From the IMG/VR virus record IMGVR_UViG_3300025133_003555, positions 1 through 23,312 of that record: a DNA stretch of 23,312 nucleotides; one strand, written 5' to 3'. Position 1 is the first letter of the stretch; the number at the start of each line of letters is the position of its first letter. Of the stretch, positions 20,482-23,312 are shown piece by piece. The notes below the pieces were generated by a model. It was given only the letters and a program-made list of their open reading frames with translations. It did no database searches and was not told the DNA's origin. Source of the stretch: a virus. The position numbers and the translations under genes were made by a program.

Positions 20482-22041
20482 TTACATTTGTGCAGGTTCG
20501 CCGTTTATTACAATATCGACTTCATCAAGTACATCTGCGTATCTGTGTTCTCTGACCCCTTGAAAGAAAGAGGTTTTCCTACGTCTACGCGCAGTATTTA
20601 GAGGTCTTAGCGGTTCAGCACCCTTGAAAGCCTTATTTGTATGCGCTTTCTGAGCATACTCCACTGGGTCGCATCCATGCAAGGCTAAAACTTCCGCATC
20701 TACCCAGTCATCGTGTTTTCCTGAAATGGTTGTAAATACGTGACCACGATTAGAAGTTTCTTTATGCGAAATGTCCATTAATTGGTTTGACAGTTTTTTC
20801 CAATCGTTGGGAAAAGTTACATGCTCGTGTTCAAGTGCAACTCGATATGGTAAGAACAAATCATGGTATTTAGATATCGGAGTGAAATTAAAAGCTATTA
20901 CCGGAATTCCTTCGGCAAGCATTTCGTTGTACATAATGTCACGAGCAAATTGCCCACCAAGTCCGGTAGAGTCCATAACAATTTGCTTAAGATTCCATCT
21001 TCGGGCTTCAGAACGAATTACTTCCATCTGGATAGTCCAGTCTGTTTTTAGAAGTTCTGTTGCATAAACGGATTCTCTTGTTTTGCGATTTTTTATAATC
21101 ATGACAGTAGCGTCATTTGACCGACCAAGGTCAAGCCCTGCAACGTATTCACAGTTTGGTTTAGGGTTTAGTAGTTCAGTAGCAATTGCTGCTTTATCAA
21201 CTTTCCTAAAGAATGCTCCGACGCCTTCTGGTTGTATTGCCATGTAGAGACGATTCCAGTCGTCTTCCATCATGGTTTCTCTGTCATCTCTGATTTCTTC
21301 TTTTTGGTCTTCAGTGAGAAGAGGGTTATCAAACGCAGTCCAAGAGAATGCTTCTCTTCTTGAAGAAGGTTTTTCCTTGGCGCGTTTAAAGTTTCTTGCA
21401 AACCAGTGACCGGGTGATACAGGGGGTATGCCTTCGACAAGTGCGCGCCCTGCTCTTCCGGGACTTGAAAGAGTGGGTCTAAGTTTATTCCACCCACGTT
21501 CGTCTATTTCTTGTGCTTCAGTTACGTGTAAGAAGTCGAGTCCTACTGACTGAAGTGATTCGGGATTATCTGCAGACTTAAGTTCCCAGAAGACAACAGG
21601 TCTTGGTCGTGGTTTACCGTCTTTTCCTCGGAGCCATCTACCGTTGTTATCTTTGAATACTAACCAGACATGCAGAGCGTCTTCTTTGAATCCAGAGCCT
21701 CTGCCTCCCGCAAGTTTATTTTCTCTGTAGGGGTTTGTTTTAGAAACAAGGTGTTCGGGAATAAACGCTTGCATCTCGTTCCAGACTTGGTACATCTGTG
21801 CTTTTGTGGGGGCGACAGTCCATACGTGGATAGCGGGAACGAGTCTTGCTTCTTCGGCTGTTTGTTTGTTACTAGGGTCGTTTGGAAATACGACGTATTC
21901 TTGTGAGAGTTCTTCTATGACCGCTAAGTCTTCTTCAAGTGCAGATCGGGTTTTTCCGCCACGCCGTCCTGTCTGATTCCATTTTATCTTCGCCTTTGAT
22001 TGGTGAAGTTTCAGTTGGTGTTCATGTGGCTTGTAAGGCAT
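20482..22041 (-). CDS. terL: Terminase large subunit (519 aa)
   Basis: This ATP-driven packaging motor and DNA-cutting nuclease is recognised by its motifs. Walker A is GRRGGKT at residues 25-31, Walker B plus catalytic Glu is LDFLHVTEA at about 168-176 (E175). The RNase H-like nuclease domain follows, with acidic residues in GLDLGRSND (D304), VMDSTG (D357) and KHDDWVDAE (about D444-D448). The Q-motif-like region near the N-terminus is EHQLKLHQSKAKIKWNQ. The length of 519 residues is in the family range and both domains are intact. The start overlaps the stop of the preceding gene by one base (TAATG). It works with the portal encoded just downstream. Confidence 0.95.
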   Translation of the reverse strand: MPYKPHEHQLKLHQSKAKIKWNQTGRRGGKTRSALEEDLAVIEELSQEYVVFPNDPSNKQTAEEARLVPAIHVWTVAPTKAQMYQVWNEMQAFIPEHLVSKTNPYRENKLAGGRGSGFKEDALHVWLVFKDNNGRWLRGKDGKPRPRPVVFWELKSADNPESLQSVGLDFLHVTEAQEIDERGWNKLRPTLSSPGRAGRALVEGIPPVSPGHWFARNFKRAKEKPSSRREAFSWTAFDNPLLTEDQKEEIRDDRETMMEDDWNRLYMAIQPEGVGAFFRKVDKAAIATELLNPKPNCEYVAGLDLGRSNDATVMIIKNRKTRESVYATELLKTDWTIQMEVIRSEARRWNLKQIVMDSTGLGGQFARDIMYNEMLAEGIPVIAFNFTPISKYHDLFLPYRVALEHEHVTFPNDWKKLSNQLMDISHKETSNRGHVFTTISGKHDDWVDAEVLALHGCDPVEYAQKAHTNKAFKGAEPLRPLNTARRRRKTSFFQGVREHRYADVLDEVDIVINGEPAQM

Positions 22042-22559
22042 TAACTAACTTTGAATGATGCAAGTCCTGAATCGTCGGATACGGGATTTTCTACCTGTTC
22101 AGTATCTTCAGCCCACTTAGCGTGAGTCTCAATATCTTTTCGTTCTTGAAATGGTTCTGCCATATCAAGCATACCGTTTTTTTCAACAATGTCCCTATGA
22201 AAGTTTATTGCCTTTGGGTCTGCTTCTAGCATTGCGTATGCTGCAAGTTCCCCTTCTCTCATGTAAACGGTTTTTAGCTGAGAGGTTGTTACTGCTTTTT
22301 GCCAACCTTTTCTTGTCGGATAGTTCCCGTTATTTCTATAGGCTTCAAGTGCTTGCTCAAAAGTAGGAGTGGATTTGATAAGGCGGTTTATAGATTCCCA
22401 CTTCCAACCCCATACCTCAACCATGTCTTGAATAGCTATTTCAGAAGAACCCCAATCTTCAAGACTTGCATATACCCGGCGAAGTCTTCTAGGCCATTCT
22501 TTCCAAAAGGGAACCGAACCATTTACACGATACTCAATCTTGTCATAGCCGTTTGCCAT
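22041..22559 (-). CDS. Terminase small subunit candidate (172 aa)
   Basis: The gene is the first in the operon and ends in a one-base overlap with the terminase large subunit, the usual arrangement for the small, DNA-recognising subunit. The N-terminal part is helical (KEWPRRLRRVYASLEDWGSS, then EIAIQDMVEVWGWKWESINRLI), consistent with a helix-turn-helix that could bind the packaging site. Then TPTFEQALEAYRNNGNYPTRK and AVTTSQLKTVYMREGELAAYAMLEADPKAINFHRDIV would form the oligomerisation core. The C-terminus is acidic (WAEDTEQVENPVSDDSG). Sequence alone is not a proof; identification depends on position. ATG at 22559 follows an AT-rich leader with an AAAGGG about 20 bases upstream. Confidence 0.75.
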   Translation of the reverse strand: MANGYDKIEYRVNGSVPFWKEWPRRLRRVYASLEDWGSSEIAIQDMVEVWGWKWESINRLIKSTPTFEQALEAYRNNGNYPTRKGWQKAVTTSQLKTVYMREGELAAYAMLEADPKAINFHRDIVEKNGMLDMAEPFQERKDIETHAKWAEDTEQVENPVSDDSGLASFKVS

Positions 22560-22581: not shown

Positions 22582-22680
22582 TTAACCGTTAACCGAAATA
22601 CACTGAAGCATTAAAGCGGAAGTGTATTTCTACGCTTAACCGTATTAACCCTTAAACAGTTTAACCGTTAAACAGTTTAA
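22582..22680. promoter_or_regulatory. TTAA-type palindromes with 16-bp spacing (operator-like)
   Basis: TTAACCGTATTAA (22636-22648), TTAAACAGTTTAA (22652-22664) and TTAAACAGTTTAA (22668-22680) begin exactly 16 bp apart. TTAACCGTTAA occurs at 22582-22592 and again at 22661-22671, bridging the last two. The 13-mers have perfect 6-base arms around a central A. Regular dyads next to the first operon gene suggest dimer binding sites of a repressor, activator or initiator protein. Confidence 0.6.
22595..22630. repeat. Inverted repeat GAAATACACT/AGTGTATTTC
   Basis: Two 10-base arms (22595-22604 and 22621-22630) are perfectly complementary around a 16-base spacer. Each arm contains one copy of the GTGTATTT core. 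The element lies about 35 bases before the small terminase gene on the minus strand. Confidence 0.7.
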
Positions 22681-22830
22681 AAAGAAACCCCCTACGAAAT
22701 ACACTCATTGTCTCAAAGACATCGTGTATTTCTAAATGCATTTAAGTGTATTTGCTGTTGAAACCACCATGTTGAACTGGAAAACCCACAATACACCAAC
22801 AGTGTATTTACTGTGTATTTTAGTGTATTT
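22596..22830. repeat. GTGTATTT iteron-like array (both orientations)
   Basis: Exact GTGTATTT begins at 22622, 22724, 22746, 22802, 22813 and 22823; its reverse complement AAATACAC begins at 22596 and 22697; a 7-of-8 copy (CAATACAC) begins at 22789. The last three direct copies are 11 and 10 bp apart, one helical turn each, and 22724 to 22746 is 22 bp, two turns. Such a mix of phased direct and inverted copies is typical of multi-site protein binding, as at origins or complex promoters. Confidence 0.7.
22696..22732. repeat. Inverted repeat GAAATACAC/GTGTATTTC with nested stem
   Basis: Perfect 9-base arms at 22696-22704 and 22724-22732 enclose a second stem, TGTCT-CAA-AGACA. The outer arms are again the GTGTATTT core plus a flanking C, matching the inverted repeat at 22595-22630. 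Confidence 0.65.
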
Positions 22831-22859
22831 ACTTTTCAGCACTGTGAGGGTCACCCAAG

Positions 22860-23060
22860 GAAAATGAACTGGCGTGGCTTCCTATCGGCGCACCCCCTCG
22901 GCGGTCGACCGTGCCGCGGTGGTCGGTCGCGGTGGTCGCGTCACCATTGCCCAAGGCGTACGCGGGCATGTCCACCCGCGTTCATTATTCACGCCCCGCA
23001 ACCCGTACGCGTGAGGGGGGCAATTGGGGGTCTTAGCCCCCTCACTCTCATATCGGGTGA
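22860..23060. other. GC-rich, inverted-repeat-dense non-coding block
   Basis: GC rises sharply: 43 of 60 bases in 22921-22980, against 17 of 60 in 13681-13740 of the internal protein gene. Elements seen are the palindrome CGGTCGACCG (22902-22911), the direct repeat GCGGTGGTCG (22916-22925 and 22929-22938), a 7-bp stem ACGCGGG/CCCGCGT (22960-22966 with 22975-22981), and a 9-bp stem at 23011-23045. No gene is supported; a structured RNA, an origin or acquired DNA are all possible. Confidence 0.5.
23011..23045. repeat. Strong GC hairpin
   Basis: GTGAGGGGG (23011-23019) is perfectly complementary to CCCCCTCAC (23037-23045), with a further GC pair after a one-base bulge. A competing stem uses the inner GGGGG and the same CCCCC run. 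Neither strand has a U-tract behind it, so it is not a classic terminator. Confidence 0.6.
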
Positions 23061-23073
23061 TAATCAGGATATA

Positions 23074-23131
23074 TCCGTACTGATTAGACCCCCTTAGGTA
23101 CGGATTCATGGTTACGATTACAACGTAATCG
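23074..23131. repeat. Two further inverted repeats near the right edge
   Basis: TCCGTAC (23074-23080) pairs perfectly with GTACGGA (23098-23104), and CGATTAC (23115-23121) with GTAATCG (23125-23131) around a 3-base loop. They continue the run of stems in this gene-free stretch. Confidence 0.55.
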
Positions 23132-23312
23132 ACACGGACTGATTACAACTCCGATGAAGAGGGGCGCCCCAAGGGGTGCAAGGTCAAGACTACGAACCCG
23201 AAATAAGTAGCCCGAACCACCTAACACAGTCCTTCCTCATCAAGACCGCCCATAGGGGTCTAGCGAGAACATAGAAGAGATACACAACGCCCCCCCCCGT
23301 CGATTATGGGGC

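Follow-up and report, generated by a model that had tools for sequence, protein, structure and literature searches.

A repeat array with covarying hairpins between a conserved core and the terS-like gene of uncultured phages: a possible packaging initiation site

In an uncultured phage and its close relatives, an array of short repeats fills the gap between a conserved 54-bp core element (22836-22889 in the sequence analysed here) and a terS-like gene, with terL next. The layout of the array is kept among close relatives while its repeat word changes as a set, the word is confined to this single locus, and two hairpins within the array show covariation. Tentatively, and a little short of calling it probable, we read the array as that half of a cos or pac packaging initiation site to which TerS would bind. 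Binding of the word by TerS, cutting of the core and action of the hairpins in DNA are the parts of this reading that we infer.

The window, that is, the whole stretch of DNA analysed, is 23,312 bases long and consists of one IMG/VR uncultured-virus record, a phage contig that is apparently a fragment and from which the early region is absent. Its ORF list shows leftward genes on the minus strand, with the terS-like ORF and terL followed by long ORFs that, judged by their order, are taken as portal, virion, scaffold, capsid and tail genes. The two terminase genes are as follows.

22041 to 22559, minus strand: terS-like gene, 172 aa, assigned by its position directly before terL and by its predicted fold (mean pLDDT 72.5), with a predicted helix-turn-helix at residues 40-63
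20482 to 22041, minus strand: terL, large terminase, 519 aa; phrog_2 at E 2.7e-33, and Pfam Terminase_6C and Terminase_3 above cut-off

Profile searches returned no family match for the terS-like product, Foldseek returned no significant match for its model, and VIA-align aligned the model only to wHTH regulators at Z about 4. The helix-turn-helix fold is a feature of the model, and the product is a putative TerS by position and model. The TerL search of genome contigs found no host genome, and among isolate phages none exceeded 23-29% TerL identity.

The initial annotation had counted eight exact copies and one near copy of an 8-mer in both orientations. All of them lie within 22596-22830, with exact copies of GTGTATTT at 22596, 22697 (minus) and 22622, 22724, 22746, 22802, 22813 and 22823 (plus) and a ninth copy with one mismatch, GTGTATTG, at 22789 (minus). 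The word is not equally dense elsewhere, as the 23,312 bases contain zero exact copies outside the array, and the pattern read backwards has 0 occurrences in the window. A copy number above chance was also borne out: the densest 8-mer cluster within 235 bp has eight copies, compared with three in 60 dinucleotide shuffles and four, of CAGCAGCA, in the rest of the real window. The spacings of 11 and 10 bp and of 22 bp are as claimed. Helical phasing applies to the triad at 22802/22813/22823 and the pair at 22724/22746 but does not extend to the whole set, which includes gaps of 27 and 56 bp. Three things had been overlooked: four of the copies form two hairpin-forming inverted repeats of 36-37 bp, a TTAA tandem repeat lies in the array, and a core adjoins it. 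From the core towards terS, the features are the following.

22836 to 22889, minus strand: conserved core GCCGATAGGAAGCC...CCCTCACAGTGCTGA (GCCGATA...AGYGYTGA), 54 bp, from sequence comparison
22802 to 22830, plus strand: triad of GTGTATTT at 22802, 22813 and 22823, spaced 11 and 10 bp, the core-nearest copy 5 bp from the core
22789 to 22809, no strand assigned: small palindrome in which the mismatched inverted copy at 22789-22796 faces the copy at 22802-22809
22756 to 22785, minus strand: central element GTTTTCCAGTTCAACATGGTGGTTTCAAC, kept as TTTTACGAGTTCAACNTGGGTGTTTCGA where the word changes, read directly from the window and the L010-L013 sequences
22724 to 22753, plus strand: pair of GTGTATTT at 22724 and 22746, 22 bp apart, from the motif search
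22696 to 22732, no strand assigned: hairpin 1, arms GAAATACAC/GTGTATTTC, a 2/4-nt internal loop and a 5-bp inner stem; z about -4.4 (RNA) and -4.6 (DNA)
22635 to 22685, no strand assigned: AT-rich tandem TTAA-containing repeats between the hairpins, unit about 8 bp, TRF period 16
22595 to 22630, no strand assigned: hairpin 2, 10-bp arms, a 3/3 internal loop and a short inner stem; z -6.3 (RNA) and -4.8 (DNA)

Read in the sense of terS (minus strand) from the far end inward, the order is the core (GCCGATAG...CACAGTGCTGA, 22889-22836), three copies of AAATACAC spaced 10 and 11 bp and beginning 5 bp from the core, an inverted copy 13 bp past the start of the last direct copy, the central element, two direct copies 22 bp apart, hairpin 1, the TTAA repeats, hairpin 2 and terS. 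The array extends about 270 bp upstream of terS. On the other side of the core, positions 22890-23312 are GC-rich and non-coding, with C-runs and short repeats, and the contigs of several independent relatives also end on that side within about 550 bp of the core.

An IMG/VR search with TerL yielded 45 loci, 12 of which, besides the near-identical L009, have 80-93% TerL identity, the rest having 54-63%. Complete-genome counts of the word were possible on relatives only. The close relatives (TerL 82-93%) do carry an array at the same place, although the close clade amounts to seven distinct array sequences only and most of its contigs are fragments. In all seven distinct array-bearing genomes the array lies exactly between core and terS, and it is the densest 8-mer cluster of each. 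The words change as a set, to AAATACAC, AAATCCAC, AAACCCA, TTACACAC or AAGTCACA: L010 has seven copies of AAATACAC and L011 five, L012 has four of AAATCCAC, L013-L016 have nine of AACCCA, L017 has five of GTGTGTAA and L019 eight of AAGTCACA. Because even close relatives differ in the word, no family signature can be read from its letters; the earlier remark that the motif is no known operator holds so far, and no initiator or late-regulator family was recognised. The spacing of the triad in the window, with the same or another word, recurs in L010, L012, L013, L017 and L019; a triad spacing of 10-12 bp is kept in most genomes with differing letters, L017 and L019 deviating in orientation. L010, L011, L012 and L013 likewise have an inverted copy 13-14 bp beyond the last direct one, and TTAA-containing tandem repeats of 7-9 bp occupy the same place in L010-L013. 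Almost every copy is inside the array (window 8/8, L010 7/7, L011 5/5, L017 5/5, L019 8/8; L012 4/7). The restriction of the word to the array in nearly every contig therefore indicates one cis site rather than a regulon, and a regulon of several promoters was rejected on this ground.

In most array-bearing genomes 5-13 bp separate the first copy from the core, while the distance from hairpin 2 to terS varies from 71 to 147 bp and reaches 606 bp in L019; the array is therefore anchored to the core. In L019, a 68-aa ribbon-helix-helix-like ORF (L019:558-761), possibly a local DNA-binding protein, is inserted between array and terS and is absent from all other array-bearing relatives. TerS and TerL are 70-93% identical in L010-L017, and the array keeps its place beside the terminase genes and the core even where the early genes next to it are replaced; homologues of the nearest divergent genes examined, those of L011 and L012, are absent from the other array-bearing contigs. 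The TerL tree does not place L012 and L013 as sisters, most of its branches being poorly supported. The earlier view of the array as protein-binding sites heading the late operon is well supported as an interpretation. The two identities it proposed, initiator iterons and operators of a regulator of the structural genes, are possible, but neither is the best fit. The array is tied to the core and stands at varying distances from the terS start.

Operators of a late-transcription activator, in which direct repeats would recruit a protein such as TP901-1 Alt or phi13 Ltr to a weak late promoter before terS, seem to us an unlikely but serious explanation. The four imperfect direct repeats to which Alt binds lie at -76 to -32, and the phi13 late promoter loses its activity when repeats at -107 to -42 are deleted (PMC13123087). 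Like these operators, the array has tandem direct repeats at the head of a packaging and structural operon; L010-L013 and L017 lack a strong consensus promoter and carry an extended -10-like TGNTAGGTT near the terS start, mostly 16-17 bp before it and in L011 about 50 bp. Unlike them, the array is longer, reaching about 270 bp upstream at a variable distance from the terS start, and comes with hairpins and a conserved core, which an activator leaves unexplained; no regulator gene was identified, as neither TIGR01637 (ArpU) nor phrog_36 matched in the array-bearing contigs, most of which are fragments. In two unrelated contigs, copies of the window word spaced by 10 bp immediately precede a TTGACT/TATAAT promoter (AAATACACCT, three to four copies, L127:409-480 and L129:3734-3800). 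These repeats look like a late-activator operator, and those of L127 follow a gene matching phrog_36 'transcriptional regulator'. The shared word, however, is not special: in a control scan of viral contigs, triads of AAATACAC numbered 14 and those of a reversed word of the same composition 12. The arrangement in L127 is a chance example, and AAATACAC in unrelated phages was rejected as evidence of one operator family. In another virus group (L122, L124, L125, L128, L130, L132), three tandem copies of AAATACACGT lie in a non-coding gap and face inverted copies about 210-220 bp away.

A replication origin, with the word as initiator iteron, the TTAA repeats as unwinding element and the hairpins as priming sites, appears slightly less likely still. 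Direct repeats together with an AT-rich unwinding-type region are present, as in SPP1 oriL/oriR (PMC6316719), the GC skew changes sign near the divergent region, and the 40-kb L012 contig, which carries AAA_25 helicase-like and CHC2 primase-like genes, has no repeat cluster besides the array. Those replication genes are about 10 kb away, however, no initiator was recognised among the L012 early proteins, and the skew follows gene direction with unequal arms. Unlike the SPP1 origins, the array lies at terS, has no identified initiator gene and is absent from near-complete distant relatives (G014-G018, without any iteron-like array); it also remains beside terS and core where early genes are replaced. 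An attP of a tyrosine integrase was rejected, as PF00589 had no match in 11 contigs, including near-complete ones.

The hairpins are conserved as pairs. In five genomes, 93% of the cells of the two hairpins are paired and 10 of 26 pairs have changed on both sides; none of 500 shuffles reached as high a covariation and slid versions came nowhere near. Compensatory changes occur in the arms and inner stem of hairpin 1, and in the outer helix of hairpin 2, which is 100% paired in the five genomes, they affect half of the ten pairs. The arms of hairpin 2 in L019, AAATACCC/GGGTATTT, differ from the repeat word of that phage yet match each other, and therefore pairing is kept, not only a binding word.

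Such changes are also what a structured RNA would show, either an early-operon leader or a separate RNA with the inverted copies as stems, and the G-U changes of hairpin 2 fit the strand antisense to terS, the evidence for a strand being slight. We nevertheless regard this explanation as improbable: pairing does not explain the direct repeats, no antisense promoter was found in the window, and folding of the whole region in the window clade gives similar z-scores on both strands. No Rfam family matched at gathering score, and nothing credible appeared at a relaxed threshold. In its favour is a structure at the same place in 12 distant relatives (TerL about 55%), where a 157-nt stretch between core and terS adopts, on the strand antisense to terS, a fold of 45 pairs; compensatory changes affect 18 of these, and 97% of cells are paired.

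L031:5325-5480, L034:7085-7240, L045:7230-7380, L048:7087-7235, L043:612-762, L039:679-833 and others, minus strand: 157-nt RNA-like structure

Scores are lower for the sense strand, the majority of one-sided changes read as G-U on the antisense strand only, and a conserved promoter-like pair, TTGAC-N16-TATAC, lies just 5' of the structure. Its covariance model detects further members, including the divergent L039 (86 bits), which was outside its training set, but finds no match in the window clade; the structure has no Rfam match and, in a DNA pattern scan, is confined to this phage family. The core-terS gap might be a packaging module that uses nucleic-acid structure, namely repeats and hairpins in the window clade and a multi-stem antisense RNA in the distant relatives; we consider this very unlikely. 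If true, packaging would be initiated with the help of RNA or hairpins in phages beyond the phi29 group.

The core, with the same two end boxes and a length of 54-57 bp, is found upstream of terS in 20 of 23 relatives checked, and core and terS are also adjacent in clades without the array, at 55% TerL identity. It is a previously unnoted element that marks a family of uncultured phages, and a candidate for the cleavage or recognition part of a packaging site. Core matches in L080 and L090 were dismissed as chance, both being inside unrelated coding sequence. In one clade an HNH_3 endonuclease gene (L022:6088-6342, with equivalents in L023-L028, L033, L035, L038 and L041) separates core from terS, an arrangement also seen in some cos-packaging phages. 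HNH proteins help cos cleavage in HK97 (PMC11331095).

Core and array lie directly upstream of terS-terL in the window and its relatives. The short, fixed distance to the core, the single locus and the constant company of the terminase genes fit a site whose word would be read by TerS and whose core would be cut by TerL. The helix-turn-helix domains of an oligomeric TerS would contact the phased 8-bp words beside the core and the inverted copies further on, placing TerL on the 54-bp core, where the concatemer would be cut; bending or shaping of the DNA may fall to the central element and to the two inverted repeats able to form hairpins. The word could then drift as a set, needing to match only the phage's own TerS, while the cut site would stay conserved. 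Against this stand distant clades that have core, TerS and TerL but no array, the clade with the HNH gene, in which open reading frames begin about 10 bp past the core, and hairpins whose covariation plain TerS binding does not require. The recognition-helix positions also fail to track the word. The TerS proteins of word-changing relatives are 55-86% identical to that of the window, and L010 and L012 have identical recognition-helix contact residues and different words. At residue 51, in the turn of the helix-turn-helix, only L012 (Glu) and L013 (Asp) among the aligned relatives depart from Gly, and they are the two genomes in which C replaces A at position 5 of the word, which is suggestive only; beyond this residue no co-variation was found. 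Contig ends, used as a stand-in for virion ends, fall elsewhere than at the core. The two ends of the G014 contig lie next to each other in the G015 contig and vice versa (L105-L108; 35.1 and 35.7 kb), so that both are near-complete units of one circular map, opened at different points. These arbitrary points are not at the core, and so they do not speak for fixed cos ends there.

Known packaging sites offer partial parallels. As in lambda-type cos (cosQ-cosN-cosB; PMC4669245), the site lies directly before terS, a putative cutting part stands beside putative binding words repeated in both orientations, and the words differ between relatives while the putative cutting part stays; in lambda, 21 and N15, cosQ/cosN are common and the R sites and TerS helices differ (PMC4669245). 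Unlike lambda, with its three R sites and IHF site, the array has 8-9 copies of an 8-bp word at 10-11 bp and two covarying hairpins, and the candidate TerS is unrelated by profile. The SPP1/SF6 pac (PMC4737164, PMC6316719) is similar in its sets of direct repeats over the terS promoter region, its circular genome map and a conserved box next to the cut, the other boxes not being common to relatives; boxA of SPP1 is not kept in SF6 (PMC4737164). The present site differs in being wholly upstream of terS and in having more copies and inverted pairs. SF6 TerS shows little preference for its own repeats (PMC4737164, PMC6316719), and the reading of packaging sites by TerS is still disputed, since binding is weak in most of the pac packagers studied and repeats are few in cos sites (PMC9611059).

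The series of words set in one layout gives these phages a particular value. If TerS is the binder, the series would allow swap experiments on TerS-DNA recognition, and if another protein binds, it would identify a new late regulator or initiator.
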